NCBI GenBank assembly: GCA_026989395.1
Contig: JALSJK010000170.1
Span: forward strand, 1-37,832
Direction: 5' to 3'
Length of the DNA: 37,832 nt
From: Methylomonas sp.
GTDB lineage: Bacteria > Pseudomonadota > Gammaproteobacteria > Methylococcales > Methylomonadaceae
Part shown: piece by piece, positions 10,096-35,548 of the stretch
How the letters are laid out: every line of letters begins with the position of its first letter
Position numbering within the stretch: the stretch's first letter is position 1
Position numbers and translations under genes: made by a program
Notes under the pieces: model-generated
The model's input: the letters and a program-made list of their open reading frames with translations, nothing else
The model's database searches: none
Told to the model about the DNA's origin: nothing

Positions 10096-10101
10096 GCCAG
10101 A

Positions 10102-10875: not shown

Positions 10876-10882
10876 TTCAAAA

Positions 10883-12666: not shown

Positions 12667-12675
12667 GTTGCTCAC

Positions 12676-12726: not shown

Positions 12727-12744
12727 AACAAGGGAGAGATATTA

Positions 12745-13578: not shown

Positions 13579-13636
13579 TTTGTTTGTCTTTTGTTTTTTA
13601 TTCAGATAGAAAAAATGTTAGATTCATGTGTGGCAG

Positions 13637-14452
13637 TTAATCGGCACTAATAATGGTACCAACCTGTTCGCCATTCAGTGCTTTGGTGATATTTCCCGGA
13701 ACAAGTCCGTTGATGATCTGTATATCTCGCCTGACTTCGGCTTTTTTCATAAATTCAAGCACTGGCGTTTCTACAACCGAATCAGGCAAGTCCATTTCAA
13801 ACATTTCGTCGACGGTAATTTTAGGAATGAATTTGGCATTTTTGTCCTTTTTAGGGTCAGCAGTGTATAAACCATTTTCATCTTTGATATAAATCATGGC
13901 GCGGGTGCCAAACATTTCACTGATCAGGTAAGAACCACTATCTGTACGGTGTGCTGGCAGACGGCCAATTTCAGGGTTGCGTTGCCAGAAAACGTAAGGC
14001 GGCATGCCAAAAAAGATGACTGCCTGACGTTCCGCAAGATACAAAGGTAATTGAGGGAACTGGATGGGTTCAATAAAAGGAATACCGTGTTTTGCCATCA
14101 TGAAGTGAATCATTCTGGCATTTTGCATGCTGACGAAGGTTCCCAAAACACTTAATACTCCGGTCGGCATACCTAAGTCAACACCAACGCTGTATGCGTG
14201 TCTGGCTCTGGTTCCTGCGCCAGTGCCAATAATCATTTTGTGTTCGGATAGGTTTTCAACAAGCTCATCAAGAATTGGCAATACTGCTGCTCTGCCGCGA
14301 TCAATAATACTTTGTCCACCAATTTTAATGACATTGGCTTTAGGAAGCACTTTGAACACAGGTTGTTCAGAAGTTTGTTCGAGAAGTGATTTGTCGGTCA
14401 GGCTGCCATTAATTAGGTTGGCGCCCAGTTCAGTTAGAAGTTCGTTACTCAT
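13637..14452 (-). CDS. mosB: Molybdenum storage protein subunit beta
   Basis: This 271-residue protein closely follows the Azotobacter MosB pattern as I know it: VIKIGGQSIIDRGRAAVLP, GTGAGTRARHAYSVG, GMPPYVFWQR, PAHRTDSGSYLISE, KDENGLYTADPK and QIINGLVPGNITKALNGEQV. With the following gene it would make the storage cage that buffers molybdenum, in diazotrophs for nitrogenase. No nitrogenase genes are in this window. A family C repeat (14502-14640) fills most of the space upstream, so the promoter lies in or near that repeat. Confidence 0.87.
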   Translation of the reverse strand: MSNELLTELGANLINGSLTDKSLLEQTSEQPVFKVLPKANVIKIGGQSIIDRGRAAVLPILDELVENLSEHKMIIGTGAGTRARHAYSVGVDLGMPTGVLSVLGTFVSMQNARMIHFMMAKHGIPFIEPIQFPQLPLYLAERQAVIFFGMPPYVFWQRNPEIGRLPAHRTDSGSYLISEMFGTRAMIYIKDENGLYTADPKKDKNAKFIPKITVDEMFEMDLPDSVVETPVLEFMKKAEVRRDIQIINGLVPGNITKALNGEQVGTIISAD

Positions 14453-14501: not shown

Positions 14502-14640
14502 TAAGGAACTGACGCAGTATTGTTATTCGTATTCAAGGCGTAGAAATAGGCGCATAGCGAGTTATGTAACTATTTTTACAACGCAGAAGACGGATAAAAA
14601 GACAAGCCAGTTGCCCAACTTATTCCGTGCTCGTTCCTAA
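14502..14640. repeat. Family C inverted-repeat element, copy 1
   Basis: The right end (TTATTCCGTGCTCGTTCCTAA) and core (TTCGTATTCAAGGCGTAGAA, GGCGCATAGC, CAACGCAGAAGACGGATAAA) match the copy at 21179-21339. The left end is shortened. The right end overlaps the last codons and stop of the methyltransferase gene. Confidence 0.8.
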
Positions 14641-16896: not shown

Positions 16897-17694
16897 ATGA
16901 AAAAAGCTTTTATGCCATTGGCAATTGCCAGTGTTTTTGCGGCAGGGTTGTCGGTTGCATCAGCAGCCGTTGATGGAAAAATTATGCCGGGAATGATAGA
17001 TAATTTTGATAATGGGAGCACAATGGGTTGGACCAATGGCGCCAGAGTTAAAACACCTCATCCGCCACATGTTGAAAACGGAAAGTTGGTGGTTGAATCA
17101 TTTGGCGAACGGTTTGATGATGAAGGAAGGCCAATTAATGACAATAAAAGGATGGCTTTTTTTAACGAAAGTTTCAGTTTTGACAGGGGTAAAAATACTT
17201 TTGATTCGCCCTGGGAAGGAGATTACAGCGGGATTAAAGCGATAAAGGCTGATTTTTCAGCAACCTCAACAACTACAGATAATCTATATCTGCGTCTTTC
17301 TTTTACTGATGGAGATAATTTCTTCTCCAGCAAAAACCCGTTCATTTTGCCAACGGATGGTGTTGAGAGGACGGCGACTTTTCTATTGGATTCGTCCAGT
17401 TTCTCAGTTAGCAAAGATTATAACAAGGGAAATACCTTTGCTGATGCCGATCAAGCGGTTTTTGATGCAGGAATTAAAAATTTTTTTGGGGTCAAAATAA
17501 TTTCTAATGAGGAGTATCCGATCTATGGTGGCAGCGATGTTGTAGCAGCAAAACTCACTATGGACAATTTCATGGCAACTGACCAGGTGGGCGTGGTTTC
17601 TAATGTTCCTTTGCCCGGTGCTGTATGGCTGATGATTTCAGGGTTGCTTGGTTTGAGCGGTGTTTCTGCAAGTAAGCGCAAAAATGCAGTCTAA
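16897..17694 (+). CDS. Secreted VPLPA-CTERM protein, beta-sandwich-like family
   Basis: This 265-residue protein has a signal peptide (MPLAIASVFAAGLSVASA) and a sorting tail: VPLPGAVWLM, a hydrophobic helix and a basic end (ASKRKNAV). That is the VPLPA-CTERM (PEP-CTERM-like) signal recognised by a dedicated exosortase. The middle begins MIDNFDNGSTMGWTNGA and contains WEGDYSGIKAIKADFSA, DNLYLRLSF and LTMDNF. This resembles a galactose-binding or laminin-like beta-sandwich. Paralogues lie at 19246, 20393 and 29834. A TAGGAGA ribosome binding site precedes the ATG. Expected location is the outer surface or extracellular matrix. No exosortase gene is in the window, and the ligand is unknown. Confidence 0.82.
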   Translation: MKKAFMPLAIASVFAAGLSVASAAVDGKIMPGMIDNFDNGSTMGWTNGARVKTPHPPHVENGKLVVESFGERFDDEGRPINDNKRMAFFNESFSFDRGKNTFDSPWEGDYSGIKAIKADFSATSTTTDNLYLRLSFTDGDNFFSSKNPFILPTDGVERTATFLLDSSSFSVSKDYNKGNTFADADQAVFDAGIKNFFGVKIISNEEYPIYGGSDVVAAKLTMDNFMATDQVGVVSNVPLPGAVWLMISGLLGLSGVSASKRKNAV

Positions 17695-17985
17695 TTCCTA
17701 CAATTTTTGAAATTATTCAGCGTATTTAATTTAACTAAATTTATTAAATATAAGTAACTTATGTAATAAGTGTATGTGTCATGGATGATACAATCAAGCC
17801 TACATGGACGTATTTACGGCGTCTTCTGGAATAAAATACTGATATTGACGCTATAAATACGCTAAGTAGTAGTTACCAATTTTTTATCAAAAACAAAACT
17901 AAGCATAATTAACCATCGAGAAGAGCTGTTTTCAGGAGATGAAGAAATGGCTCGAGAAAAAATTACTTTAATAAGGAGAAGTATT
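17695..17985. other. Intergenic region
   Basis: No gene is supported. A stretch at about 17802-17825 (CTACATGGACGTATTTACGGCG) resembles fragments of palindromic intergenic repeats I associate with gammaproteobacteria, but no full element is seen here. Confidence 0.35.
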
Positions 17986-19188
17986 ATGAATACAAAAATA
18001 TCCCTATTGGCTGTGCTTGCTGCTGCCAGTTTTAACAGCTATGCGGTCCCTGCATATCGTTTGTCCGATCTTGGTGTATTACCTGGTGACAGAGCATTTT
18101 CCCAAGCTTACAGTATAAGTGAAAATGGACTTATCTCTGGACGTGCTCGTGGCAGAATGCAGATTCCAGGCACAACAGATCAGCTGCGTGGACCCACCAA
18201 TGCGGTGAGGTTCTACAGTGAGAGTGGCTATATTCAGACCATGGGGACTTTGGGCGGTACTAGTGGCCACGGGTTGGCATCCTACGGGAGGGCAATCAAT
18301 AATAGTGGCTTGGTCGCAGGATATTCTACCATTACCCCGGATCCTAATCACGCTCGTCAATATCATGCTTTTGTTAATGATTATGGAAAAGGCACCATGA
18401 AAGATATAGGCACACTGGGTGGTCCTGAGTCTCGTGCTTATGGCATCAATAATCACGGTAAGGTTGTTGGTTGGTCAAACACCAAAGCCGATGGAAGCGA
18501 TCATGTGGCATTTGTTTATGATTCTGAAACCGGGGCTATGACTGGTCTGGGTGGCAATCTGCTAGGTGGTTCCCGGTCATTCGCCTTTGATATTAACGAT
18601 CTGGGCCAAGTTGCTGGTACAGCAACTTTGGCAGATGGGTCTGCGCATGCTTTTGCTTATTCAAACGGCACTGCAACTGATTTAGGGTCTTTGGATAATT
18701 CAGGATATTCTGAAGCACGGGCAATTAATGAAAACGGTTGGGTGACAGGCTGGTCTTTGACAGAATCCAAGGATTATCATGCTTTTATACATAATGGCAC
18801 TGAAATGGTTGACCTGGGATCATTAGGTGGTGATACCAAGGGTCTGGATATTAACAATAAAGCTCAAGTCGTTGGCTCTGGTACTGATGCCGAGGGTAAA
18901 TCGATTGCTTTTTTATATTCGGATGGGCAGATGTTTAATCTTATTGATTTATTATCACCTTCTGATCGAGCCATGCTGAAAGAAATTAGAGAAGCGGCAA
19001 GCATAAACGATGACGGAACAATTGTTGGACGTGCAAGTTTCTGGACTGATGAAGCCAATGGCAAAAGTCAGACAAGAGCATTTATGGTTAGTGCTGTTCC
19101 GGTTCCCGGTGCGATTTTCCTGATGGGGCCAGCGATAGGTTTTCTTGGTTTTATGGGTAAGCGGCGGGCAAGACAACAAGCAGCTTGA
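17986..19188 (+). CDS. Secreted HAF-repeat protein with VPLPA-like sorting tail
   Basis: This is a 400-residue extracellular protein. The signal peptide is MNTKISLLAVLAAASFNSYA. It carries a series of HAF repeats of the type LGTLGGxxSxAxxINNxGxVVG, for example DIGTLGGPESRAYGINNHG and DLGSLGGDTKGLDINNKAQ. These are predicted to form a beta-propeller-like fold. The C-terminus has VPVPGAIFLM, a hydrophobic helix and GKRRARQQAA, a variant of the VPLPA sorting signal. I use the ATG at 17986, preceded by AAGGAG; a frame from 17947 has no such site. A paralogue is at 30665. The function of HAF proteins is not known; surface display is the inference. Confidence 0.85.
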   Translation: MNTKISLLAVLAAASFNSYAVPAYRLSDLGVLPGDRAFSQAYSISENGLISGRARGRMQIPGTTDQLRGPTNAVRFYSESGYIQTMGTLGGTSGHGLASYGRAINNSGLVAGYSTITPDPNHARQYHAFVNDYGKGTMKDIGTLGGPESRAYGINNHGKVVGWSNTKADGSDHVAFVYDSETGAMTGLGGNLLGGSRSFAFDINDLGQVAGTATLADGSAHAFAYSNGTATDLGSLDNSGYSEARAINENGWVTGWSLTESKDYHAFIHNGTEMVDLGSLGGDTKGLDINNKAQVVGSGTDAEGKSIAFLYSDGQMFNLIDLLSPSDRAMLKEIREAASINDDGTIVGRASFWTDEANGKSQTRAFMVSAVPVPGAIFLMGPAIGFLGFMGKRRARQQAA

Positions 19189-19245
19189 AACGCGATTTAA
19201 AACACCTCGGGAAGTTAAAAAAGAAATATAGTTAGGAGATATAAA

Positions 19246-20004
19246 ATGAAAAAAATATTTAAACCGTTATTCGCTTTGGCTGCAGCAGTTGTTTGTACCA
19301 GCACTTTTGCTTCAGTCGCGCCGATGAGTGATTTTGAAGATGGTACCACCCAAGGTTGGGGCAAAGGTAGACGTGTTGAACTTCCGGTAACAATTGGAAT
19401 GGAAGATAACGGTAATCACTATCTAAGATACCAGTCTAATGGTCCTGATGCGGAGGAGCATGATAAAAGAATTGCGTTGTTAGCCGGGAAAGAATGGCGA
19501 GGCAATTACAGTGCTATGGGGGTTACATCAATCACTGCACGTATGAAAAATATGGGACCCAAGGATTTGGAAATGCATGCAGCTTTTGGGAATTCCCTGG
19601 CAGATTTACGTACTAGATTCGCTACCGAAGGAATAGCTTTGGCTGCAGATGGTGAGTGGCACGATATGGTCTTTGATCTGACCAATAATCTGCATCAGGT
19701 GTCGTTACATGGGCATGGAAAATCATCAGCTTTGTTTTCACTGGATGAAGTGTTAGGGAATATCGTGAATTTACGTTTTACCCATGGGACATTTGGAGAA
19801 ACATACCTTGAAAGACGCGGTCCTTTTGAAGGCTATAATGCGGGTGAAGAGATAATTGCGGATTTGTGGATTGATGATATTAAATTGTCAACTGCACCTA
19901 TTGGAAGTGAAGTATCGAATGTTCCGTTACCTGGCGCTGTCTGGTTGTTCACTTCTGCAATTGCAGGGTTATCAATAGCTAGAAAACGTAAACAGACACT
20001 ATAA
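19246..20004 (+). CDS. Secreted VPLPA-CTERM protein, beta-sandwich-like family
   Basis: This 252-residue paralogue of the 16897 protein has a signal peptide (LFALAAAVVCTSTFA). The body starts with MSDFEDGTTQGWGKGRRVEL and has WRGNYSAMGVTSITARMKNM, DGEWHDMVFDL and LWIDDIKL. The tail is VPLPGAVWLFTSAIAGL plus ARKRKQTL. TAGGAGA precedes the ATG. It is closer to the 29834 protein (shared RGNYSxxGVxSIxARMKNMG) than to the first member. It is 58 nt from the HAF gene and is followed by a terminator, so 17986-20004 may be one transcript. Confidence 0.82.
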   Translation: MKKIFKPLFALAAAVVCTSTFASVAPMSDFEDGTTQGWGKGRRVELPVTIGMEDNGNHYLRYQSNGPDAEEHDKRIALLAGKEWRGNYSAMGVTSITARMKNMGPKDLEMHAAFGNSLADLRTRFATEGIALAADGEWHDMVFDLTNNLHQVSLHGHGKSSALFSLDEVLGNIVNLRFTHGTFGETYLERRGPFEGYNAGEEIIADLWIDDIKLSTAPIGSEVSNVPLPGAVWLFTSAIAGLSIARKRKQTL

Positions 20005-20059
20005 CTCAAGGAGTATGGTAACTTGTAATTAAATTAAATTAAATTAAAACCCAAAAAAA

Positions 20060-20088
20060 GCAGCGATTTTGTTAATCGCTGCTTTTTT
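20060..20088 (+). terminator. Intrinsic terminator
   Basis: GCAGCGATT and AATCGCTGC form a perfect 9-bp stem with a 5-base loop, preceded by A residues and followed by TTTTTT. It ends the first group of surface-protein genes and could work in both directions. Confidence 0.92.
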
Positions 20089-20112
20089 ATGCTTGAACCT
20101 AAATCCGTAATT

Positions 20113-20276
20113 TATACTTCGCGCGGTTACGAATGCGGAATTTATAGCACACTGATTTATGCCGAGAGCAAGGCACTAAAATAGGCGCATAGCAAGCTAC
20201 GCAACTGTTTTAGTAACGCAGCTATGGGTAACAACTCAGTCGTTAGGAATCCGTAGTCGTAACCGCGCGAAGTATA
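20113..20276 (+). repeat. Family A MITE-like element, copy 2
   Basis: This 164-bp element runs from TATACTTCGCGCGGTTAC to the inverted end GTAACCGCGCGAAGTATA, a perfect 18-bp terminal inverted repeat. It is the reverse complement orientation of the copy at 1538 and parallels the one at 35549. Confidence 0.88.
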
Positions 20277-20392
20277 ACTACGGCAAAGGTAGAATTTATC
20301 CTTGAAAATAATAGATAGGGTGCGTGTTCAGTTTAAGTTGTCAAAAAATAAGTATCCAAAGAATATAACAGTTCTTTGAAAAGAGGTTCGTA

Positions 20393-21148
20393 ATGAAAAA
20401 AAATTATAATTTATTCATGGTGTTTTTATTTGCCAGCTGCTTGCAAATGGCTTCCGCAAGCGTCATTCAGCCAGGGATGATGGATGACTTTGAGGATGGA
20501 ACAACAGCTTCCTGGATAAAAGGAATTGAATTAACGAAAGCCAAGATCCTGCCGCCAAGAAATGTGGCTAATGCTGATGAAAGTAATCGTTTTCTTGAAG
20601 TCAAATCAACAGGCAGCAGTACTAATGATAATGTTGCACGAGACCCGCATTCTAGGATGGTTTTTTTTAATGAAAGTCAATGGACTGGTGATTATTCAGG
20701 AATAACGTCCATTACTGCCATGATGAAGGCAACTTCAAGTACTGAAGATAATTTATTTATGCGTCTGGCTCTCTATGACGAAAAAATTACTGGGGAGTCG
20801 CAATCACGTTATGTCTCTGCTGCTCCTGAAATTCTTAAAACAGACGGGGAGTGGCATTCCATGTTTTTTAGTCTGAATCCATCTGACCTGGTACGATTCA
20901 GAGGTGAAAAAACTGCTGAACAGGTGTTAAGCAATGTTGGGCATTTGAGGTTTTTATCAAGCAAGGACAATGCAGCTGCATGGCAGGTTGACAAAATTGA
21001 GGCCACATTAGGTATTGACAATATTACTGCTGTTTCAGCGTTAACTGCTGTTCCGTTACCTGGCGCTGTTTGGTTTATGATATCTGCAATGACTGGACTA
21101 ATGGGGATAAAAGTACGCCAAAAATTTTGTAACAATAAAACTCAATGA
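20393..21148 (+). CDS. Secreted VPLPA-CTERM protein, beta-sandwich-like family
   Basis: This is a third member in the same cluster, 251 residues. The signal peptide is MVFLFASCLQMASA. The body has GMMDDFEDGTTASWIKGIEL, NESQWTGDYSGITSITAMM, EDNLFMRLALYD, DGEWHSMFFSL and LGIDNITA. The tail has VPLPGAVWFMISAMTGL and ends VRQKFCNNKTQ, longer and less basic than in its paralogues. AGAGG precedes the ATG. It is separated from the previous gene by a terminator and a repeat element, so it probably has its own promoter. It is the last gene before the multihaem cytochrome operon. Confidence 0.8.
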   Translation: MKKNYNLFMVFLFASCLQMASASVIQPGMMDDFEDGTTASWIKGIELTKAKILPPRNVANADESNRFLEVKSTGSSTNDNVARDPHSRMVFFNESQWTGDYSGITSITAMMKATSSTEDNLFMRLALYDEKITGESQSRYVSAAPEILKTDGEWHSMFFSLNPSDLVRFRGEKTAEQVLSNVGHLRFLSSKDNAAAWQVDKIEATLGIDNITAVSALTAVPLPGAVWFMISAMTGLMGIKVRQKFCNNKTQ

Positions 21149-21178: not shown

Positions 21179-21339
21179 TAAGGGACGAGCACGGAATAAC
21201 TTTGGAAAATGGCGTAGTAGTTTATTCGTATTCAAGGCGTAGAAATAGGCGCATAGCCAGCTATGTAACTATTTTTACAACGCAGAAGACAGATAAAAAG
21301 ACAAGCCAGTTGTTAAAGTTATTTTATGTTCGTTCCTAA
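21179..21339 (+). repeat. Family C inverted-repeat element, copy 2
   Basis: This 161-bp element begins TAAGGGACGAGCACGGAATAAC and ends in the inverse (TTATTTTATGTTCGTTCCTA). Its interior matches the copy at 14502-14640. The central GGCGCATAGC ... AACGCAG segment is also related to family A. It sits directly upstream of the cytochrome operon. Confidence 0.85.
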
Positions 21340-21422: not shown

Positions 21423-22979
21423 ATGTTTAGGTTATTTCTCTATTTTTCATTTTTGATTTTGTTCATCCCGCCGCAATCCCATGCTGTTCGAATTGAGCAA
21501 TTAGCTATGCCTGGAAAATTAATCAAGGATCATGCAGAGTATGAAGACCGATGTGAAGATTGTCACAAGGATTTTAGTGAAGAAGCGCAAAGTTATCTGT
21601 GCAGTGATTGTCATGAAGAAATCGCTTTAGATGTAACCAGGAAAAAAGGTTATCATGGCGACGCCTTAGTCAGAGACAGGGAGTGCTCGGAATGTCATAC
21701 AGACCATAAAGGACGCGATGCCAATATTGTAATTTTTGATCCTGCTACATTTAATCACAAGCAAACAGATTTTGAGTTACGCGGCAGTCATAAACTTGCT
21801 GCATGCGAAGGTTGTCATGATCGTGAAAATAAGAAATATCGGGAAGCGCCCACAGAATGTTACGCTTGCCATAAAGAGGATGAGCCGCATAAGGGATTAT
21901 TAGGTAAGAATTGTGACAGCTGTCATAACGAAAAACAATGGAATGAGCTCGATTATGATTTTGATCACAACCAGACAGACTTTCCTTTAAAGTTTAAACA
22001 TACCGATATCGAATGCTTAACTTGCCATACCGAAGGTATCAGCAAAAAAATCTCAATTGAATGCGTAACCTGTCATATTATAAATGATGTACATGGTGGA
22101 CGTTATGGAAAGCGCTGTCAGGATTGTCATACTGAACGAGGCTGGGATAAAGGAAAATTTGATCATGATCAGACAGACTTTCCTTTGCGTGGCAGTCATG
22201 AGAAAGTGGTTTGTGACGCTTGTCATAAAGATCCAATTTTTGAAAAGGAAATGAAAATGGATTGTTATTCGTGTCATCAGGCAGATGATAAACATCATGG
22301 ACAGAATGGCAAGCAATGTAATGATTGTCATACACCAACTGCATGGAAAAAATATATTTTTGATCACGACACAACCGACTTTCCATTAAAAGGAGCGCAT
22401 AGAGATAATCCATGTACCAGTTGTCACAAAAAAGACATTTATAAAGAAGATCTGGAGATAGAATGTATCGGTTGTCATCGTCAGGATGATGTCCATAAGG
22501 AAGATCAGGGTGAGCAATGTGATGATTGTCATAATGAACAAGGCTGGAATAACAAAATTATGTTCGATCATGATATAACATCGTTCCCTCTGGTAGGTTT
22601 ACATGCCACAGTTCCATGTGAGGAATGCCACATATCCCAGGTTTATTCAGATTCAAAGTTGACTTGTATTAGCTGTCACAAGGTAGATGATGTTCATGAA
22701 AAAAAATTGGGAGTTAAATGTATTAGCTGCCATAATCCCAATGGCTGGGGCATTTGGCTATTTGATCATGATCTCCAGACTGAATATGTTCTTGATGGTA
22801 AACATAAAAATCTGGATTGCCATGCTTGTCATACCGAGCCGGTAGAAGATGAAATTCATTTGTTGACTACTTGTGTTTCATGTCATAAAAAAGATGACAT
22901 CCATGAAGGAATCCATACAGATTATTGTGAGCGTTGTCATGTAACCAGCTCTTTCAAAGATATTCAAATCAAAAGATAA
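21423..22979 (+). CDS. Exported multihaem c-type cytochrome with 21 CXXCH motifs
   Basis: This 518-residue periplasmic or outer-membrane cytochrome has a signal peptide (LFLYFSFLILFIPPQSHA). I count 21 CXXCH haem motifs spread evenly through the mature chain. They are embedded in a repeat of about 50 residues marked by FDHDxTDFPLxGxH, CxxCH and a DDxHxGxxGxxCxxCH segment. Many extra histidines can act as second haem ligands. The pattern resembles cytochrome c3/c7-like extended wires. AGGAA precedes the ATG. Its stop overlaps the start of the next cytochrome (TAATG), showing a coupled operon that ends with a barrel protein. Role inferred: long-range electron transfer across the periplasm toward the outer membrane. 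Not a recognised named cytochrome. Confidence 0.88.
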   Translation: MFRLFLYFSFLILFIPPQSHAVRIEQLAMPGKLIKDHAEYEDRCEDCHKDFSEEAQSYLCSDCHEEIALDVTRKKGYHGDALVRDRECSECHTDHKGRDANIVIFDPATFNHKQTDFELRGSHKLAACEGCHDRENKKYREAPTECYACHKEDEPHKGLLGKNCDSCHNEKQWNELDYDFDHNQTDFPLKFKHTDIECLTCHTEGISKKISIECVTCHIINDVHGGRYGKRCQDCHTERGWDKGKFDHDQTDFPLRGSHEKVVCDACHKDPIFEKEMKMDCYSCHQADDKHHGQNGKQCNDCHTPTAWKKYIFDHDTTDFPLKGAHRDNPCTSCHKKDIYKEDLEIECIGCHRQDDVHKEDQGEQCDDCHNEQGWNNKIMFDHDITSFPLVGLHATVPCEECHISQVYSDSKLTCISCHKVDDVHEKKLGVKCISCHNPNGWGIWLFDHDLQTEYVLDGKHKNLDCHACHTEPVEDEIHLLTTCVSCHKKDDIHEGIHTDYCERCHVTSSFKDIQIKR

Positions 22980-25681
22980 TGCTGCATTTTTTTTCATTAT
23001 CAGGTTCATTGAGTAGCAACGTAACCCTAAAGTTTAAAATATTATTCATACTGATTTTATGGTTTGTATTATTACCTGTTCATTCAGGTACAAAACAAAC
23101 TGAAGGTGAGTTTGATCATTTATCAACCGGTTTTTTTCTTTCTCCTGCACATAGAAATGTTGATTGTGCTGATTGCCATGTCAAAGGTATATTTAAGTCG
23201 ACTCCAAGGAAATGTAGCCAGTGCCACAATAGTTCGACTGTTATTACTGCATTAGGAAAAAACCGAGGTCATTTGCATAGCACGGATGACTGTGAAGAAT
23301 GTCATGGGGATAACGGGTTAACCTGGTCTGAAATTAATTTTAAAACCCATGATGCAGTTTTGGGCGATTGTTCCAGTTGTCATAATGGTAAGATTTCGAT
23401 TGGCAAACATCAATACCACATACCATCAAATGATCGTTGTGAAAGTTGTCATTTTAATACTTCAACTTTTGTTGGTGCTAAGTTTGACCATAGTAATACC
23501 ACAGGCAATTGTTCCAGTTGCCATAATGGTCGTAGCGCCACTGGAAAAAATCGTACCCACATGCGTTCTAGTGAAACCTGTGAAAGCTGCCACGTACCGG
23601 GAACCTGGAATAATATTACAGGCGTTGATCACAGTGATGTGGTTGATGGTACTTGTGCAGAGTGTCATGACGGTAATCTGGCAAGCGGTAAGCATACGGA
23701 TCATATACCGACATCCGAATCCTGTGATGTATGTCATTTTCAGGCTGGAGTAGTTTGGACAGGTGCCAGATTTGATCACAGTAATACGACCAGTGGTTGC
23801 TCGAATTGTCATAATGGAAGAAGAGCAACGGGTAAACATCGAGCGCACATGCGTTCGAGTGAAACCTGTGAAAGCTGCCACGTGCCGGGAACCTGGAATA
23901 ATATTACAGGCGTTGATCACAGTGATGTGGTTGATGGTACTTGTGCAGAGTGTCATGACGGTAATCTGACAAGCGGTAAGCATACGGATCATATACCGAC
24001 ATCCGAATCCTGTGATGTATGTCATTTTCAGGCTGGAGTAGTTTGGACAGGTGCCAGATTTGATCACAGTAATACGACCAGTGGTTGCTCGAATTGTCAT
24101 AATGGAAGAAGAGCAACGGGTAAACATCGAGCGCACATGCGTTCGAGTGAAACCTGTGAAAGCTGCCACGTGCCGGGAACCTGGAATAATATCACAGGCG
24201 TTGATCACGGTGATGTAGCTGATGGTACTTGTGCAGAATGTCATGATGGTAATCTGGCAAGCGGCAAGCATACGGATCATATACCGACATCCGAATCCTG
24301 TGATGTATGTCATTTTCAGGCTGGAGTGGTTTGGACAGGTGCCAGATTTGATCACAGAAATACGACCAGTGGTTGCTCGAATTGTCATAATGGAAGAAGT
24401 GCTACTGGGACTCATCGTGCGCATATGCCATCAAGTAATACCTGTGAGAGCTGTCATGTCCCTGCAAACTGGAATACGATTATCAATGTAGATCATGATG
24501 ATGTACTGCAGGGTACTTGTTCTGAATGCCATAATAATGGAATTGCTCAAGGAAAGAATCGTTTTCATATTGCCAGTAGCGATACCTGTGACAACTGCCA
24601 TTTTCAGGCCGGAATAACTTGGGCAGGAGCCACTGATCAGGAATCAACAGGTGGCGATATTGTCAGTAATGCCGCAATTGAAAGTGAAGTTAAAGTATTA
24701 TCTGCAAGTGTTAGTAATGCTAAGGATGAAGACATCGTTGAAAACTCTGTTGAAGTTGGAGATTCCAATCATCCAGATGTCACTGAAAATTGTTCTGATT
24801 GCCATGATGATAAGACAGCGCCAGGGAAAAAAACTAATCATTTGCCGACATCAGATAATTGTGAAGCTTGCCATCAAATTGGTAGTTGGGTTGTTGAAAA
24901 TTTTAATCATGATGCCGTTACAGCCAGTTGTTCAGATTGCCACAATGGATTAGCTGCATCGGGTAAATCAAACAAGCATATTACAACGACTAGCGCTTGT
25001 GCAGATTGTCATCGGACAGATCATTGGGTGCCAGTTGACCGAGTTGAACATATCATGACAATTGGAACGTGTTTTTCATGTCATGATCGCCGCACTGCTG
25101 AAGGAAAAACGCTTAATCATATTTCTAGTGATAATCAATGTGATAATTGTCATGTGACGCAATTATGGTCGCAGGTCGTTATGGATCATGGTAATGTCAC
25201 TGGCAGCTGTTCTGTTTGTCATGATGGGCGGACCGCATCAGGAAAGCCAGTAAACCATATCATGAGTAATAATGTCTGCAATGACTGTCACAGACGAAGG
25301 GCGTGGACGCCAGTTTATCGAGTCGATCATCTGGCTGTTTCTGGAAGATGTTCATTTTGTCACAATGGAAAAGTTGCTGAAGGGAAGCCCGTTACCCATC
25401 CAGGAAGTAATAATAACTGCGAAGAATGTCATCGAATAAATGCATGGAACCATGTGGTTTTTAATCATGATAATGTAACGGGTACCTGTCTGAGTTGTCA
25501 TGCAGATGTATACAGGCAGAAAGATCATATAAAAACCCGGCAACCGGTTATCACTTATTATTCTGCAAACGAATTAAGTGATTGTGCAGGTAGTTGTCAC
25601 ATCTATCAGGGACGAGATTCTACAAAGATTCAAACAAGAAGGCCTGGGCCTGAACACAGACCTGAACGAGCTGCCTGGTAA
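22979..25681 (+). CDS. Giant multihaem c-type cytochrome with 32 CXXCH motifs
   Basis: This roughly 900-residue protein begins at the ATG overlapping the upstream TAA; the frame reaches back to 22934 but then runs inside the previous gene. A hydrophobic segment (FKILFILILWFVLLPVHSG) is the signal peptide. I count 32 CXXCH motifs plus one CXXXCH (CAGSCH) near the C-terminus. The haem motifs come about every 24 residues in the pattern GxCxxCHxGxxAxGKxxxH. Three consecutive 96-residue units, each with four motifs, are almost identical in both protein and DNA. An acidic linker without haems (around 24630-24780) divides the protein into two haem modules. Expected location is periplasmic or outer surface, with electrons hopping along a haem chain. 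No close named homologue is known to me. Confidence 0.87.
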   Translation: MLHFFSLSGSLSSNVTLKFKILFILILWFVLLPVHSGTKQTEGEFDHLSTGFFLSPAHRNVDCADCHVKGIFKSTPRKCSQCHNSSTVITALGKNRGHLHSTDDCEECHGDNGLTWSEINFKTHDAVLGDCSSCHNGKISIGKHQYHIPSNDRCESCHFNTSTFVGAKFDHSNTTGNCSSCHNGRSATGKNRTHMRSSETCESCHVPGTWNNITGVDHSDVVDGTCAECHDGNLASGKHTDHIPTSESCDVCHFQAGVVWTGARFDHSNTTSGCSNCHNGRRATGKHRAHMRSSETCESCHVPGTWNNITGVDHSDVVDGTCAECHDGNLTSGKHTDHIPTSESCDVCHFQAGVVWTGARFDHSNTTSGCSNCHNGRRATGKHRAHMRSSETCESCHVPGTWNNITGVDHGDVADGTCAECHDGNLASGKHTDHIPTSESCDVCHFQAGVVWTGARFDHRNTTSGCSNCHNGRSATGTHRAHMPSSNTCESCHVPANWNTIINVDHDDVLQGTCSECHNNGIAQGKNRFHIASSDTCDNCHFQAGITWAGATDQESTGGDIVSNAAIESEVKVLSASVSNAKDEDIVENSVEVGDSNHPDVTENCSDCHDDKTAPGKKTNHLPTSDNCEACHQIGSWVVENFNHDAVTASCSDCHNGLAASGKSNKHITTTSACADCHRTDHWVPVDRVEHIMTIGTCFSCHDRRTAEGKTLNHISSDNQCDNCHVTQLWSQVVMDHGNVTGSCSVCHDGRTASGKPVNHIMSNNVCNDCHRRRAWTPVYRVDHLAVSGRCSFCHNGKVAEGKPVTHPGSNNNCEECHRINAWNHVVFNHDNVTGTCLSCHADVYRQKDHIKTRQPVITYYSANELSDCAGSCHIYQGRDSTKIQTRRPGPEHRPERAAW
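23563..24426 (+). repeat. Three 288-bp tandem repeats inside the cytochrome gene
   Basis: Units begin at 23563, 23851 and 24139 with GCGTTC(T/G)AGTGAAACCTG. The spacing is exactly 288 bp and nucleotide differences are few, including at silent sites. Each unit encodes 96 residues and four CXXCH motifs, so copy-number change keeps the frame and adds or removes four haems. Confidence 0.93.
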
Positions 25682-25687
25682 TACTGT

Positions 25688-27925
25688 ATGAAGATAAGTA
25701 CTGACAGGCAGAACTCACTTCTGTGGGGGTTAGCAATACAAACTACTAAATGCCCGAGTTCGATAAAACAATTTTTACTTGGTTTGTTGCTTTGTATGTT
25801 CTCACAACACGGTGTTGCGAGTGAGAAACTTTTAGAGTCAATAAATATCACTGATAAGTTTAGTTATTCCATAATTGATTTAAGGCTCAATCAGCCAGTC
25901 ACTGTAACCTCCTATGCGCCTTTAAAAGAAGGAGACTTGCTCAGAGTGAGAGTCAGGTCAACTTCGAATCGTTTGGACAATAAAGGCTTTTCAAGATTTG
26001 AGTTTTTGCCGTGGGAGCCAACTGCCAAGGTTCCGCTTTTCGAAGTCACTGTTGACTTAGATAATGAAATTTTGTTTCACTTTAAGCGGAAAATGAAATA
26101 TGAATTATTACCAGCGAGCAGCGCTTTTCATATTCTGGTTAAAGTATTTCATCCTGCCCGAATAACCACATTACCTCCTACAGAAAAGCAGTCTAAAAAG
26201 TCTGCGCTACAACCAAAAACACAGGCAACAAAAACAAAACAGAAGGCCAGTGTTGTCGAAAACCCGGTTCTGGCAGGTCTGATGGATGAAGCCAGAAAAG
26301 CAATGTTAAGTAAGGACTATAAGCGGGCAATCCGGCTTTATTCCAAGGTTGTGTTTGAAGGAGAAAATACTACCTATTATAAAGAAGCATTGGAATACCT
26401 TGGTCTTGCAAGAGAGCGTAACCTTCAGTTTGCCCATGCAAAAAATATCTATGAAAAATATCTTCAGCGTTTCCCAAAAGGTGAGGATGCTGATCGTGTC
26501 AGACAGCGTTTAATGGGCATTATAACGGCACAAACAGAACCTAAAGAGAAATTAAAAGAGGGAAAAAGTAAAGATAAATTTGTACCAGGTATTCGGTGGG
26601 ATGTATTTGGGAGTTTTTATCAGCTTTATAATCGCTTCGAAACAAAATTTAATGATGAGCCAGCCAGGCTTAATCGATCTTCATTGCAGAGTGGACTAGA
26701 TCTGAATGCGAGGCTGGAGTATCAGGAATATATGATTAAATCTCGATTTTCAGGCAGTTATAATGCAACTATTGAAGATTCGGAGGAGGATGAAAGTCGA
26801 ATACACAGTTTGTTTATAGATTTTCTCCATCAGCCCTCGGGCACTTTGCTCCGTATTGGTCGACAATCTAGCAGCTCAGGTGGAGTTTTGGGTCGATTTG
26901 ATGGTGGTTATTTAAGTTTGCCAATGGGGGATAAAATACGAATAAATTTAGTTGGTGGATTTCCTGTATTGTCTTCGCGGGATATTTTTATAAATAAAGA
27001 TGTTGAATTTTATGGCATCAATGCTGATCTAGGCCCATTTTTTGATTCACTGGATTTTAATATTTTTTATATTGAGCAGCATGATCACGGATTGCTCGAC
27101 AGACGTGCAGTTGGAGGAGAAATTAATTTCTTTCAGGAAAACAAATCATTTTTTAGTTTTGTCGATTATGATATTTATCATCAGACACTCAATTCATTTT
27201 TGTTTACCGGGCAGTGGGTTTTTGAAGATCGAACTGCAATCAATCTGTCCTATGATTATCGTACCTCTCCTTATTTAACGACCAGTAATGCAACCCAGGG
27301 CCAAAATTTTCGTGATGTAGAAACTTTAGACCAATTGCAGCGTTTTTTTTCAACTGAAGAAATTAAACAGATAGCCAAAGATAGAACAGCAGATAGTCAG
27401 ACCTGGGCTGTTGGTTTATCGAGACCTTTAACAGAAAACTTGCAGTTTAATGGTGATTTTAGAGCCAGTAAATATTCTAGTACCAATACCTCTGGTGGTG
27501 TTGAGGGATCAAATGGTACTGATTATGAGTATACCTATTCTTTTGACCTGACAGCAAACAGTATATTTATAGATGGAGATATTTATGTTTTTGGTGTTCG
27601 TTTCAGGGATATGGAGCGGGCAACAGCAACTTCATTCCGAATTAATGCACGTTACCCTGTGACCAGAGACTTTCGCATCAACCCAAGATTCAGGTTTAAT
27701 TTACGCGATAATGATGATGGCACCAAACGCTATTCCTATCAGCCTTCTGTTAGAATGACGTATCGTTTGTTTAAGGGGCTTCAGTTGGAACTTGAAGCGG
27801 GTGGGGAGTGGGAAAGTCAGGGGCGAACAGAAGAAGATCTCCGATTGTCTCCAGCCAATGACCAGGAGCCATTTGATCAAACCAAAGGTTATTTTCTGAT
27901 TGTTGGTTACCGGTATATCTTTTAA
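25688..27925 (+). CDS. TPR and outer-membrane beta-barrel protein of the cytochrome operon
   Basis: This 745-residue exported protein has a signal segment at SIKQFLLGLLLCMFSQHGVAS after a long N-region. An N-terminal domain is followed by a TPR-like stretch (DEARKAMLSKDYKRAIRLYS, AKNIYEKYLQRFPKGEDA). The C-terminal 450 residues show alternating polar/hydrophobic strands with many aromatic residues, ending in GYFLIVGYRYIF. A terminal Phe is the usual outer-membrane barrel signal. It starts 6 nt after the giant cytochrome. The arrangement of cytochromes plus barrel resembles porin-cytochrome conduits, though this is not recognisably MtrB or PioB. A solo family C end begins straight after the stop codon. 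Confidence 0.8.
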   Translation: MKISTDRQNSLLWGLAIQTTKCPSSIKQFLLGLLLCMFSQHGVASEKLLESINITDKFSYSIIDLRLNQPVTVTSYAPLKEGDLLRVRVRSTSNRLDNKGFSRFEFLPWEPTAKVPLFEVTVDLDNEILFHFKRKMKYELLPASSAFHILVKVFHPARITTLPPTEKQSKKSALQPKTQATKTKQKASVVENPVLAGLMDEARKAMLSKDYKRAIRLYSKVVFEGENTTYYKEALEYLGLARERNLQFAHAKNIYEKYLQRFPKGEDADRVRQRLMGIITAQTEPKEKLKEGKSKDKFVPGIRWDVFGSFYQLYNRFETKFNDEPARLNRSSLQSGLDLNARLEYQEYMIKSRFSGSYNATIEDSEEDESRIHSLFIDFLHQPSGTLLRIGRQSSSSGGVLGRFDGGYLSLPMGDKIRINLVGGFPVLSSRDIFINKDVEFYGINADLGPFFDSLDFNIFYIEQHDHGLLDRRAVGGEINFFQENKSFFSFVDYDIYHQTLNSFLFTGQWVFEDRTAINLSYDYRTSPYLTTSNATQGQNFRDVETLDQLQRFFSTEEIKQIAKDRTADSQTWAVGLSRPLTENLQFNGDFRASKYSSTNTSGGVEGSNGTDYEYTYSFDLTANSIFIDGDIYVFGVRFRDMERATATSFRINARYPVTRDFRINPRFRFNLRDNDDGTKRYSYQPSVRMTYRLFKGLQLELEAGGEWESQGRTEEDLRLSPANDQEPFDQTKGYFLIVGYRYIF

Positions 27926-29212: not shown

Positions 29213-29379
29213 TTGGTTCTTTTTAGCTAAGGGCAATAGTGAGTGTGAATAATTGTTTTCCATGCATCATTAGTCACGACAATAGTTTGTTAAATTCCCT
29301 TTTGTTAAGTGATTAAATCAGACACTATTTTATCATGTTGAGAATGTTTAAAAAGCTCTTCACAATAATTACTTTTAAA

Positions 29380-29643
29380 TATACTTCGTGTGGCCACTAA
29401 AACAGTTGCTTAGCTTGCTATGCACCTTTTTTAGTGTCCTGCTCTCGACAAAAATCTGTACGCTAAAAACTCCGCATCCGTGACCGCCACTGTCATCAAG
29501 TTAAGACAAAGTGTAGGTTGGGTTAGTAGTAGCGTAACCCAACATTTTCTGGATTTTGTCGGGTTACGCTACCGCTAACTCGACCTGCAAAATTGCAAAT
29601 TCTCTTAACTTAATGGTAGTGATCCGTGATCATGCGAAGTATA
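29380..29643 (-). repeat. Family A element, internally deleted and interrupted
   Basis: It starts TATACTTCGTGTGGCCAC and ends CATGCGAAGTATA. Compared with the copy at 1538, about 45 bp are missing after GGCCAC. Element B (29488-29621) splits the right end. Confidence 0.8.
29488..29621. mobile_element. Element B, a 134-bp inverted-repeat element nested in family A
   Basis: Ends CACTGTCATCAAGTTAAGA and TCTTAACTTAATGGTAGTG are imperfect inverted repeats. The interior is a long hairpin: GTAGGTTGGGTTAG with AGTAGCGTAACCCAACA pairs with TGTCGGGTTACGCTACC and GCTAACTCGACCTGC. ATCCGTGACCGC on the left and ATCCGTGATCAT on the right look like a diverged target duplication. Confidence 0.78.
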
Positions 29644-29833: not shown

Positions 29834-30604
29834 ATGAAAACATATCTTGTTGGGTTGTCTTTTGTTGTCGGCTTATTAACTTCAAATATTTCTCTCGCTG
29901 TTACCGTGAATTCCAGTTTGTTAAATGATTTTGAAGATGGTTTGCCACATGGGTGGAAAAAAGGTTCCAATGCCAGTCCCAGGCAGTTTCCAAAAGTTGT
30001 TGAGGAAGCGAATGGAAATCACTATTTGGAAGTCACATCAGTTGGAGGTGGGCCAGATGGTCGTGGGCCAAGTAGTCGAATGACTGTTATTAATGAAACC
30101 GAATGGCGTGGAAATTACAATTCTGCAGGTGTTGGTTCGATCAAGGCACGTATGAAAAATATGGGTGATGATACATTGTATATGCGCGTTGGTTTTACGA
30201 CTCGGGCTATTGAAGAGTGGCATTTTGCAGCATCCAAAGAACCACTCGAATTACCGGCAGATGGTAAATGGTATGATTTATCTTTTGCAATCAGTGAAGA
30301 ATATATAACACCATTTCTGGGAAATGAAGGAGAGTGTTGTTTTCCTGAATGGGATTTTAAAGAGGTTGTTGGTGGTGTCAATCAACTTAAGTTTCATAGT
30401 GGTAAAGATGCTCATTTTTGGGGAGGGGAAAGACTTGAGTCTACATTGGGAATTGATGATATTCATGTGTCATCAGATGTCATGCAGGCAATCACATTGA
30501 GTGAATTGGATACTACGCCTGTACCCCTTCCAGCTGCTTTTTGGCTGTTTCTGACGGGGTTGGTCAGTACAATCGGGCTAAAAAAAAGCCGAGGTTTGGC
30601 ATAA
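29834..30604 (+). CDS. Secreted VPLPA-CTERM protein, beta-sandwich-like family
   Basis: This is the fourth member of the family, 256 residues. The signal peptide is LVGLSFVVGLLTSNISLA. The body has LLNDFEDGLPHGWKKGSNA, NETEWRGNYNSAGVGSIKAR, DTLYMRVGF, DGKWYDLSFAI and LGIDDIHV. The tail reads VPLPAAFWLFLTGLVSTIGL plus KKSRGLA, the classic VPLPA form. AAGGAG precedes the ATG. It is followed 60 nt later by a HAF-repeat gene, repeating the pairing at 16897-19188. The second pair may be a duplication of the first. Confidence 0.83.
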   Translation: MKTYLVGLSFVVGLLTSNISLAVTVNSSLLNDFEDGLPHGWKKGSNASPRQFPKVVEEANGNHYLEVTSVGGGPDGRGPSSRMTVINETEWRGNYNSAGVGSIKARMKNMGDDTLYMRVGFTTRAIEEWHFAASKEPLELPADGKWYDLSFAISEEYITPFLGNEGECCFPEWDFKEVVGGVNQLKFHSGKDAHFWGGERLESTLGIDDIHVSSDVMQAITLSELDTTPVPLPAAFWLFLTGLVSTIGLKKSRGLA

Positions 30605-30664
30605 TTATTTTGACCAAATCAAATTAAGAAATACCCAATTACCATGAATTTTAAGGAGAACATC

Positions 30665-31777
30665 ATGACAATATACAAACTTGTATTTGCAATTGCTGCG
30701 GCAATAATAAGTAACAGTGCCTTTTCTGCCATAGCTTATCAAATTACTGACCTGGGAACACTTGGGGGTACATCATCGCGTGCATACGGAATAAACAATA
30801 TTGGAGATATCGTTGGCCGCTCCAGACCTATCAATGCTGACGGTACTAATGGTACACGCAGCGCCTTTTTATATACTAATGGCCGGATGCTTGATCTGGG
30901 CAATTTTGGTGGCAGTAACACTGTTGCAAGAGCTTCAAATTTTCATCGTCAAGTGGTTGGTTATTCCAGACCAACAGATAGCAAGGAGTATAAAGCATTT
31001 TTGTATGACAAAGGTGAAATGAAAAACCTTGGGACACTTGCAAATGGCAAATACTCTTATGCTTATGGTATCAATGACAAAGGCCAGGTTGTGGGTCATT
31101 CACATACCAATGAGTCAGGTACTACATCCGAAGCATTTATTTATGAGAATGGTGCAATGAAAGGTCTAGGTACCTTGGGTGGGAATTCTTCAGGTGCGTT
31201 TGACATTAACGAAGATGGGACGATAGTAGGTTCGTCTACACTGGCAACGGGTGATACCCAGGGGTTTGTCTACAAGGATGGAAAAATGACAAGTTTAGGT
31301 TCTTTAGGCAGTTCAGGGTTTTCAGAAGCCAGGGCAATTAATGATCTGGGGCAAATTGTTGGGAATTCATTGACCGATTCGGGACATTATCATGCGTTTT
31401 TGTATGAAGATGGCGGCATTCAGGATCTTGGAAGTATTGAAGGTGATTCATTTGCTTATGATGTCAATAATAAAGGTCAGATTGTCGGTGGATACCGCTC
31501 ACATCTTCTGGAAGGTTCAGGAAATGCTTATCTTTACAGTGATGGAGAGATGCTTGATTTGACCAGTCTTCTTAACCCTTCTGAACAGGACAGATGGAGT
31601 CTGACGGCAGCTTATGGTATTAATGATATTGGTCAGGTTGTTGGGTGGGGAACCCTGGCGGGTGAGACGCATGCTTATTTACTGACAGCTGTTCCTCTAC
31701 CTCCAGCATTCGTATTGCTGACGTTAGCTTTCGCACTATTAGGATTTACAGGAAATCAATCAGGAAGAAAGAATTGA
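30665..31777 (+). CDS. Secreted HAF-repeat protein with VPLPA-like tail
   Basis: This 370-residue paralogue of the protein at 17986 has a signal peptide (LVFAIAAAIISNSAFSA). About seven HAF repeats follow, such as ITDLGTLGGTSSRAYGINN and GLGTLGGNSSGAFDINEDG. The tail is VPLPPAFVLLTLAFALLGF and ends NQSGRKN. I use the ATG at 30665, which follows AAGGAG; a frame from 30644 lacks one. It is probably co-transcribed with the preceding beta-sandwich gene, and both should reach the cell surface by the same exosortase. Confidence 0.85.
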   Translation: MTIYKLVFAIAAAIISNSAFSAIAYQITDLGTLGGTSSRAYGINNIGDIVGRSRPINADGTNGTRSAFLYTNGRMLDLGNFGGSNTVARASNFHRQVVGYSRPTDSKEYKAFLYDKGEMKNLGTLANGKYSYAYGINDKGQVVGHSHTNESGTTSEAFIYENGAMKGLGTLGGNSSGAFDINEDGTIVGSSTLATGDTQGFVYKDGKMTSLGSLGSSGFSEARAINDLGQIVGNSLTDSGHYHAFLYEDGGIQDLGSIEGDSFAYDVNNKGQIVGGYRSHLLEGSGNAYLYSDGEMLDLTSLLNPSEQDRWSLTAAYGINDIGQVVGWGTLAGETHAYLLTAVPLPPAFVLLTLAFALLGFTGNQSGRKN

Positions 31778-35470: not shown

Positions 35471-35548
35471 GCAAAAATTATCCACTTTTCCCGCAAAAAT
35501 ACCTTGTTGAATTCAATTGCACAGCATGATCTGTAGTAATTTTCTAGT

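Follow-up and report, generated by a model that had tools for sequence, protein, structure and literature searches.

The gene cluster at a methanotroph locus

Which kind of electron conduit is encoded where two extremely heme-rich cytochrome genes adjoin an outer-membrane barrel gene in a methanotroph, and with which partners would it exchange electrons? This question is raised by a 37,832-nt stretch of Methylomonas sp. DNA (hereafter, the window), in which two multiheme cytochrome genes, A and B, are contiguous with a barrel gene, C, in that order. Judged by sequence comparison, the window probably encodes a complete trans-envelope electron conduit of the PCC3 type from a Methylococcales methanotroph, in whose genome PmoA is also present. 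The PCC3 genes lie in two blocks 13 kb apart, one at 3.9–8.3 kb with the genes for an inner-membrane protein (IMP), an FNR-like protein and an ankyrin-repeat protein, and the other at 21.4–27.9 kb with genes A, B and C.

Gene A (21,423–22,979, + strand) encodes a probable periplasmic cytochrome of 518 aa with 21 CXXCH motifs, or 24.7 aa per heme, grouped as seven triplets that form tri-heme modules. Gene B (22,979–25,681, + strand) encodes 900 aa from its ATG, with 32 CXXCH motifs, one CX3CH near the end and 28.1 aa per heme. Direct counting thus reproduces the 21 and 32 motifs (53 in total) given in the first-pass annotation. No window frame longer than 60 aa other than A and B has more than one CXXCH, on either strand; the richness of these two genes is therefore not due to chance. 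The tight packing described earlier is likewise borne out, as the stop of A and the start of B share TAATG, a 6-nt gap separates the end of B at 25,681 from the start of C at 25,688, and the product of C ends in Phe (...GYRYIF).

Gene B encodes the large variable cytochrome, which is probably located at the cell surface. It contains a tandem array (23,558–24,476, + strand) of 3.2 copies of a 288-bp (96-aa, four-heme) unit, three copies of which are 94–99% identical (99.0% for units 1 and 2); because a short-read assembly could collapse such a near-identical array, the count of 32 hemes is valid for this assembly. Caps at the N- and C-terminal ends are conserved. Matches of B to the DmsE/MtrA-type decaheme model were partial and fell below the cut-off (112 versus 192 bits).

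Gene C (25,688–27,925, + strand; 745 aa) lacks CXXCH altogether and combines a beta-rich N-terminal domain (residues 49–154) with TPR helices (193–281) and a barrel (302–744). An AlphaFold2 model (mean pLDDT 85.9, pTM 0.60) lends support to the outer-membrane barrel claimed at first pass: the barrel domain is modelled with high confidence, and 22 strands are predicted from residue 302 to 744, counting 680–684 and 687–695 as one. In two fold-comparison searches, the nearest solved folds were closed outer-membrane barrels; MtrB was absent among the 50 matches listed per search, where generic barrels dominate, a result that is uninformative either way. No Pfam barrel family matched gene C, PF11854 (MtrB_PioB) being absent at E ≤ 0.1, nor was PF11854 among the families listed at E ≤ 0.01 for 62 barrel homologues. 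A SPOR domain, present in 33 of these 62, is absent from the window's barrel. The best 80 of 247 barrel relatives were kept as homologous loci, and the barrel alignment comprises 61 of 70 uninterrupted homologous frames plus the window's barrel.

Assignment to PCC3

The trio had been put forward as a possibly undescribed system matching no familiar named type. The second part of this statement holds with respect to Mtr and Pio, to which the trio does not correspond by sequence (no PF11854), but not with respect to PCC3, and the first must be withdrawn: these three genes make up the core of a type that He et al. named PCC3 in 2017 (PMC5566968). Sequence comparison assigns the window cluster to PCC3 almost certainly, because the PCC3 barrel of Amphritea atlantica is homologous and the gene order identical. 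He et al. describe the PCC3 of A. atlantica DSM 18887 as having 21 and 63 hemes (PMC5566968); in our locus set, this strain shows a 21-heme cytochrome, a 63-heme cytochrome and the barrel in succession, with IMP and FNR genes alongside. Identity to the window is 40% for the barrel, 47% for A, 32% for the IMP and 55% for the FNR; the closer L008 reaches 68% for A. The same paper already lists one methanotroph, 'Methylococaceae sp. 73a', among the organisms with PCC3 (PMC5566968).

The published PCC3 medians are 34 hemes for the surface and 21 for the periplasmic cytochrome, and the window has 32 and 21 CXXCH, few residues per heme and the 288-bp repeat. The PCC3 IMP is described as a protein of about 300 aa with five transmembrane helices, an SGXXG motif and two WX3HX13H motifs (PMC5566968); the window encodes one of 331 aa with five helices, SGIVG and both histidine motifs.

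The inner-membrane protein and its neighbors

Three further genes of the system, 13–17 kb from the trio in the same window, were overlooked in the first-pass annotation. The IMP gene (3,873–4,868, − strand) carries its two WX3HX13H motifs at W118/H122/H136 and W301/H305/H319 and SGIVG at residues 160–164. Alignment with first 19 and then 34 homologues from PCC3-type loci gave 25–35% identity, with all four candidate heme His invariant; the protein is likely a di-heme b cytochrome. Its model has a mean pLDDT of 83.6. Signs of homology with ferric reductases or NOX are weak: the match to SpNOX (Z 8.1, rmsd 3.8 over 122 residues, 16th in VIA-align) lies within the helical-protein background, Pfam Ferric_reduct matched 1 of 35 members, at 16.5 bits (cut-off 28), the best Foldseek E-value was 0.96, and a profile search of PDB sequences returned no NOX among 38 matches at E ≤ 10, none of them meaningful. 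The IMP gene is linked to the cytochrome genes but not adjacent, lying about 16.5 kb away; an IMP beside the cytochromes is 'largely conserved' in PCC3 according to He et al. (PMC5566968) and so is no strict criterion of the type. In a sister genome of L008, the IMP is on the cytochromes' contig and strand, about 9.8 kb upstream of the 21-heme gene.

Divergently oriented from the IMP gene across a 64-nt gap is the gene for the FNR-like protein (4,933–6,294, + strand; 453 aa), comprising an N-terminal transmembrane helix, two [4Fe-4S] motifs (the second being CIGHGPCKDVCP) and an FAD/NAD(P)H reductase domain that lacks the CxxC of TrxR. It matches Fer4 and Pyr_redox in Pfam and YpdA/TrxR-like proteins in NCBIfam and the PDB. 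The family consensus was built from 30 sequences, and the window's protein, like most others, starts with a membrane anchor flanked by basic residues. Downstream follows a Sel1 and ankyrin-repeat gene (Pfam Sel1/Ank; 6,257–8,299, + strand) with a signal-peptide-like start, whose likely ATG at 6,296 is 2 nt past the FNR stop and whose product is a probable periplasmic scaffold. A homologue was detected in 26 of 41 loci, adjoining FNR or IMP in 24 and lying only downstream of the barrel in L055 and L079, a count to be read with the caveat that ankyrin repeats cross-match easily. The main texts of the PCC3 papers hold no mention of the FNR and ankyrin genes that we could find, although their supplements may differ; the two seem to belong to PCC3 as further genes, a proposal that is new here.

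Conservation across genomes

Synteny was counted in 41 of the 80 loci, those with about 10 kb upstream, taking any frame with at least nine CXXCH as a cytochrome; since every locus was located by its barrel, the counts cover barrel-bearing loci. The first-pass annotation would have been contradicted by homologues that never occur together; instead, at least one cytochrome lies upstream of the barrel in 39 of 41 loci, and at least two in 36. The first cytochrome has exactly 21 hemes in 27 of these 36 and increases in size three hemes at a time, with 18, 21, 24 or 27 hemes in 37 of 39 cases, mostly 21. The second spans 11 to 63 hemes across homologous loci (35 frames, leaving out the N-interrupted last frame of L013; L013, L016 and L044 have runs of N upstream). 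A mostly constant first and a variable second cytochrome would fit a wire whose length suits the periplasm's width.

An IMP was found in 32 and an FNR in 27 of the 41 loci, and in L008 and L082 both lie beyond the flank on the barrel's contig. All six genes are contiguous and co-directional in L047 and L018, with gaps of 0, −1, 59, −4, −1 and 0, 14, 27, −4, −1, respectively. L040 and L084 are without clear orthologues of IMP and FNR, and L016 retains an IMP fragment only. Methylococcus capsulatus Texas and Methylococcus STC_26 possess A, B and the barrel, with no IMP or FNR match genome-wide. Such absences speak against the conduit reading, as do the 13 kb between the window's two blocks.

Among 274 genomes of the class, the barrel occurs in 36, FNR in 35 and IMP in 34, each pair of the three co-occurring in 33; barrel and FNR are discordant in five. 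In a phylum sample of 398 genomes, barrel and FNR occupy an identical set of six. The class counts exclude weak barrel matches (E above 1e-30; 8 of 44 matching genomes: G027, G044, G118, G171, G189, G226, G281 and G300), seven of which cover the TPR region only and one, G027, no more of a barrel than its final 60 model positions, and weak IMP matches (E above 1e-40; 8 of 42). The samples are not fully independent, because the 80 loci include some from class genomes; G062 and L046, for instance, have a 108,322-base contig in common. Between barrel, IMP, FNR and A, the pairwise distances correlate with r of 0.74–0.83, values that none of 2,000 permutations reached.

A proposed electron path and its alternatives

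The inner-membrane step of PCC3 has so far rested on hypothesis. From the six genes, a path can be sketched in which electrons would pass between NADPH, the flavo-FeS protein, the di-heme b IMP, the 21-heme wire, the barrel and the 32-heme outer wire. On the cytoplasmic side, the inner-membrane-anchored FNR would trade electrons with NAD(P)H, and the five-helix IMP would carry them across the inner membrane through two b hemes. Cytochrome A, nearly fixed in length, may span the periplasm; barrel C would let them cross the outer membrane; and cytochrome B, whose length varies, could reach outward as a wire. The periplasmic parts may be tethered by the TPR domain of C together with the Sel1-ankyrin protein. 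That NAD(P)H is the cytoplasmic partner seems to us nearly an even call. More tentatively, PCC3 might be a six-gene, NADPH-linked relay that bypasses the quinone pool, rather than a four-gene, quinone-linked one, with a NOX-like step feeding the 21-heme wire; FNR would then be a 2x[4Fe-4S]-FAD protein with a permuted TrxR-like fold and a conserved His replacing a cluster Cys. If this six-gene reading is true, methanotrophs can vent reducing power without oxygen.

Alternatively, PCC3 may be coupled to the quinone pool, as He et al. proposed, with the IMP acting as a quinone-active cytochrome b and FNR as an accessory in regulation, repair or cofactor maintenance, a reading we consider credible if somewhat doubtful. 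He et al. likened the IMP to a quinone-active cytochrome b or an FRD domain from its two HX13H motifs (PMC5566968), G230 in the class sample and L044 have barrel and IMP without FNR, and FNR is divergently transcribed at many loci, the window included. Nevertheless, FNR closely tracks barrel and IMP, accompanying the barrel in 33 of 36 genomes of the class sample and in 6 of 6 of the phylum sample; it also carries a membrane anchor at its N terminus and is contiguous with the IMP in L018 and L047.

As for direction, outward flow is in our estimate evenly balanced against all else; the likeliest use here would be to dump electrons, under oxygen shortage, on an extracellular acceptor such as Fe(III), humics or another cell. 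Uptake, in which the wire imports electrons from Fe(II), minerals or other cells, is conceivable, though we lean against it. As a methanotroph, the window's organism has an electron source inside the cell, and Fe(II) can reduce NAD(P)+ only energetically uphill, both of which count against uptake. PCC3 is, on the other hand, found in iron oxidizers and was modelled inward (PMC5566968), and in Sideroxydans CL21 the copy 2 IMP was significantly up when iron oxidation was possible (PMC12442390); in Sideroxydans ES-1, however, both PCC3 clusters were down under Fe(II), in a study that treats the function of PCC3 as unproven (PMC8788666); this also weighs against the conduit reading as such. With FNR and the Sel1-ankyrin protein as candidate cytoplasmic and scaffold parts, direction and electron source become testable.

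An envelope or periplasmic heme capacitor or redox buffer, without a connection to the outside, is improbable. It would suit the very large number of hemes, a gene A product that would fit wholly within the periplasm and the capacitor-like storage mentioned by Hoover et al., but the cytochrome genes are accompanied by one for an outer-membrane barrel (at loci found through that barrel), and the heme count of B ranges from 11 to 63 against a mostly 21-heme A, as expected if only B escapes the periplasm's fixed width. Finally, a new conduit type, as proposed at first pass, would agree with a trio that is not Mtr or Pio and a barrel outside the Pfam barrel families, yet it is all but ruled out by homology and synteny with the named Amphritea PCC3 and by the PCC3 IMP in the window.

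Comparison with known conduits

MtrCAB, MtoAB and PioAB likewise pair multiheme cytochromes with an outer-membrane barrel, but the window's barrel is not of PF11854 and its 21- and 32-heme arrays differ from MtrA-type decahemes. Another putative conduit from a Methylococcales methanotroph, the Methylobacter PCC reported by ter Horst et al. (2026; PMC13322032), is described as consisting of a decaheme MtrA/DmsE, an MtrB/PioB barrel and two monoheme cytochromes; identity with this system is ruled out, as PF11854 matches nothing anywhere in the present genome. PCC4, as described by He et al. (2017), shares the barrel, the multiheme cytochromes and a five-helix IMP with the same His motifs, but differs from PCC3 in having no extracellular cytochrome and an IMP of a different family (PMC5566968).

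PCC3 itself has figured since 2017 among the possible conduits for extracellular electron transfer, with a function described as unverified (PMC5566968). The window departs from it in the position of its IMP, 16.5 kb off on the other strand, and in its 22 modelled barrel strands versus the up to 42 predicted by He et al. (PMC5566968). In common with PCC3 as described there and in a Gallionellaceae survey (PMC10734462), it has the IMP, a 21-heme periplasmic and a large variable cytochrome, and the barrel, and its cytochromes are similarly repeat-rich, with about 25–28 aa per heme (PMC5566968; PMC10734462).

Gene content of the locus and its host

The window constitutes the whole of contig C170 (37,832 bases) in a 3.27 Mb assembly, and the presence of PmoA in this genome (2.5e-129) suggests that the organism is a Methylococcales methanotroph. 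A direct count bore out the first-pass annotation, which had placed exactly 21 and 32 CXXCH motifs in two adjoining cytochrome genes (A and B) and had noted that A and B meet at TAATG and that 6 nt separate B from the gene of a barrel protein (C) ending in Phe; the trio occupies 21423-27925 on the forward strand, and C is 745 residues long. No further open frame of more than 60 residues in the window contains more than one CXXCH. The motifs of A form seven triplets; spacings inside a triplet are 16-18, apart from one of 28 in the first triplet, and successive triplets are 32-40 apart. Pfam assigns seven Cytochrome_C7 stretches to the protein. B carries a heme every 23-26 residues along most of its length, with one 68-residue break, and includes three 288-bp units sharing 94-99% identity. 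A separate 118-nt repeat is present in two copies (91% identical) at 14523-14640 and, shortly upstream of A, at 21222-21339.

The porin-cytochrome type PCC3 combines a barrel with two cytochromes, one extracellular (median 34 hemes) and one periplasmic (median 21), and with a five-helix inner-membrane protein (IMP) bearing an SGXXG motif and two WX3HX13H motifs (He et al., 2017; PMC5566968). The window encodes such an IMP at 3873-4868 on the reverse strand, bearing W118/H122/H136, W301/H305/H319 and SGIVG; its four histidines (H122, H136, H305 and H319) are invariant in 35 sequences. Judged by its sequence, the locus is PCC3.

Related loci and heme number

In a set of 41 genomes, made up of 40 relatives plus that of the window, four contain the barrel: G000, G031, G039 and G026, where a contig end cuts it. 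In G039, a Methylococcus belonging to the same order as the window's genome, genes for 21-heme, 11-heme and barrel proteins are ordered as in the window, the 21-heme protein being 43% identical to A, and Methylococcus capsulatus Texas has a corresponding locus on contig NZ_AUKJ01000016.1. Another Methylococcus, with a single-contig genome, retains a 79-aa frame (G027:C1:3313718-3313897) matching only the last 60 positions of the barrel model, a pattern that would fit loss of the locus in that genome.

A scan of named genomes yielded 247 barrel relatives, the best 80 of which served for locus comparisons; synteny was counted in the 41 loci among these 80 with about 10 kb upstream, taking at least nine CXXCH to define a cytochrome. 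At least one cytochrome lies upstream of the barrel in 39 of the 41 and at least two in 36, and IMP is found in 32. Of the 36 loci with at least two, 27 have a first cytochrome of exactly 21 motifs. Across 39 first cytochromes whose start is not truncated by the locus boundary, the window's among them, the motif number is a multiple of three (18, 21, 24 or 27) in 37. For the cytochrome immediately preceding the barrel, motif numbers in 35 N-free frames span 11 to 63, with no three-heme step. Its ends are recognisable in most loci, with an N-terminal cap, FDHxxTGFxLxGxH...CxxCHxxGxFxGTP, and in many loci a C-terminal cap, YTVSELRDCxGxCHxYT...EHR, carrying a CX3CH heme; plausibly, the ends would dock and the middle grow. 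Upstream of position 10001 in locus L082, a cytochrome frame with 96 CXXCH continues past the locus edge, exceeding the 85 hemes of the largest cytochrome known to He et al. (2017; PMC5566968).

Predicted structures

In the barrel protein model (mean pLDDT 85.9), residues 49-154 form a beta-rich N-terminal domain, 193-281 are TPR helices and 302-744 contain 22 strands, counted by eye. In VIA-align, its best rows were TonB-receptor barrels, including PirA (Z 16.3, rmsd 3.9, 378 aligned), together with usher barrels, and the TPR part matched MamA (Z 14.9, rmsd 1.1, 88 aligned). SPOR, a peptidoglycan-binding family, is represented in 33 of 62 barrel homologues (alignment A4); no such domain was found in the window's barrel protein. 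IMP was modelled as a helical bundle (pLDDT 83.6). The most suggestive neighbour among the IMP matches listed, the NADPH oxidase SpNOX (Z 8.1, rmsd 3.8, 122 aligned, 16% identity), ranked 16th and fell within the helical-protein background.

FNR and ankyrin proteins

When the window's genes were compared by blast with the 80 loci (best 80 of 247), 4933-6294 (forward) was found in 30 and 6257-8299 (forward) in 27, mostly adjoining IMP. The first encodes an FeS-flavoprotein (FNR) with a membrane anchor at its N-terminus; it has two [4Fe-4S] motifs, and its FAD/NAD(P) domain is TrxR/YpdA-like. In a consensus of 30 sequences, read by eye, the TrxR dithiol is absent, and the second cluster motif, CIGHGxCxxxCP, has a conserved His at the usual Cys (cluster-ligand) position. 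The PGVFIAGE segment, normally terminal in such reductases, precedes the GxGPAG segment in this consensus, an arrangement that suggests a permuted fold. The second gene encodes a Sel1-ankyrin protein (ANK) with a signal-peptide-like start. In loci L018 and L047, six genes are contiguous and co-directional in the order FNR-ANK-IMP-MHC21-MHC31-barrel (MHCn, n-heme cytochrome), and the intervals between them measure -4 to 59 nt; in other loci, the window among them, FNR and IMP are divergently oriented. FNR and the ankyrin protein are likely an extension of PCC3.

In a class sample of 274 genomes (cut-offs 1e-30 for barrel, 1e-60 for FNR and 1e-40 for IMP), barrel and FNR occurred together in 33 genomes, barrel without FNR in three and FNR without barrel in two. 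In a phylum sample of 398, both were present in the identical six genomes, two of which (the window's own and G126) also belong to the class sample. Fisher values for this co-occurrence ignore kinship, and some class genomes recur among the 80 loci. Within the set of 41 near relatives, strong matches to IMP and FNR were confined to G000 and G031, both barrel-positive. Distances for barrel, IMP, FNR and A are correlated (0.74-0.83), which supports partnership without proving it, because common descent alone would give part of the correlation.

There are exceptions. Genes for A, the barrel and a B of 11 hemes are present in Methylococcus (G039/L055, L057), but neither IMP nor FNR was found genome-wide; this locus either uses another inner-membrane partner or is decaying. 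Neither was found for L040, and L084 gave only weak matches (IMP 2.1e-11; FNR 4.4e-34 at 30%). L044 has IMP and lacks FNR, L016 has FNR with IMP as a fragment only, and L008 and L082 carry both on the barrel's contig, beyond the 10-kb flank. Among barrel genomes of the class sample, G195 and G198 lack both, G230 lacks FNR and G217 lacks IMP; among those without a barrel match, G133 has IMP and FNR, and G138 FNR alone.

Probable rearrangement of the locus

The closest relative among the best 80 of 247 is L008 (barrel 57%, A 68%, IMP 56% and FNR 65% identical). In its genome all parts lie on a single contig in the order ankyrin(-) FNR(-) / IMP(+), about 9.8 kb, MHC21, MHC28, barrel, the interval holding exported-protein genes and a sulfatase-modifying-factor-like gene. 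The same exported-protein genes lie upstream of A in the window, where the IMP/FNR/ankyrin block is inverted relative to L008's genome and more distant, beyond molybdate genes. Because exported-protein genes also lie between IMP and MHC21 in L008's genome, and the window's block is inverted and farther away, the separation of this block from A probably arose in this lineage, with the window's copy rearranged further.

Between the two PCC3 blocks, 8321-14452 (reverse) holds molybdate transport genes (ModC, ModA and a permease). Adjoining them are an ABC-2 exporter pair and genes for two amino-acid-kinase proteins, which may be a molybdenum-storage protein pair. Exported-protein paralogues with a VPLPGAVW... 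C-terminal sorting-like tail, presumably of PEP-CTERM type, and HAF-repeat proteins lie at 16897-21148 and 29834-31777; L132, the sister locus in L008's genome, has homologues (32-69% identity) in the stretch from IMP to the 21-heme gene. A MITE-like intergenic repeat, at most about 170 nt long, is scattered in five copies, in both orientations and mostly 82-100% alike (1533-1705, 2848-2951, 20108-20279, 29376-29487 and 35548-35713). Both PCC3 blocks are flanked by copies of this repeat, which could have aided rearrangement relative to L132.

Proposed electron route

From the gene content, motifs and co-occurrence observed, we infer a route in which electrons would pass from NADPH to FAD, FeS, the b hemes of IMP, A and C/B, and thence outside. 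NADPH is the putative partner of FNR because a SYRxxxFxRAKxKNR stretch following GGGDSALEAA resembles what we take to be a 2'-phosphate site, as in TrxR. He et al. proposed instead that IMP exchanges electrons with quinone. Electrons may flow in either direction. Both PCC3 clusters of Sideroxydans ES-1 are down with Fe(II), which argues against Fe(II) uptake in that strain (PMC8788666). He et al. (2019; PMC6344600) suggested that Fe(III) or humics could serve methylotrophs with PCC genes as electron acceptors.

Comparison with known systems

In the main texts of PCC3 papers, including PMC5566968 and PMC8788666, no mention of FNR or ankyrin partners was found, and none of the flavin and NADH mentions in the main text of PMC5566968 concerns PCC3. 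Literature searches found nothing joining multiheme, ankyrin and outer membrane, and, for PCC3 with extracellular electron and NADPH, He et al. alone. The trio itself had initially been considered a possible undescribed system, a suggestion now superseded by the IMP in the window and by the match to Amphritea atlantica DSM 18887, a PCC3 example for which He et al. (2017; PMC5566968) already gave 63 and 21 sites. This strain (locus L035) has the gene order MHC21 - MHC63 - barrel, and identity to the window's proteins is 40% for its barrel, 47% for A and 32% for IMP. "Methylococaceae sp. 73a" was likewise named as PCC3-containing (He et al., 2017; PMC5566968). Both PCC3 and its occurrence in a methanotroph are already known.
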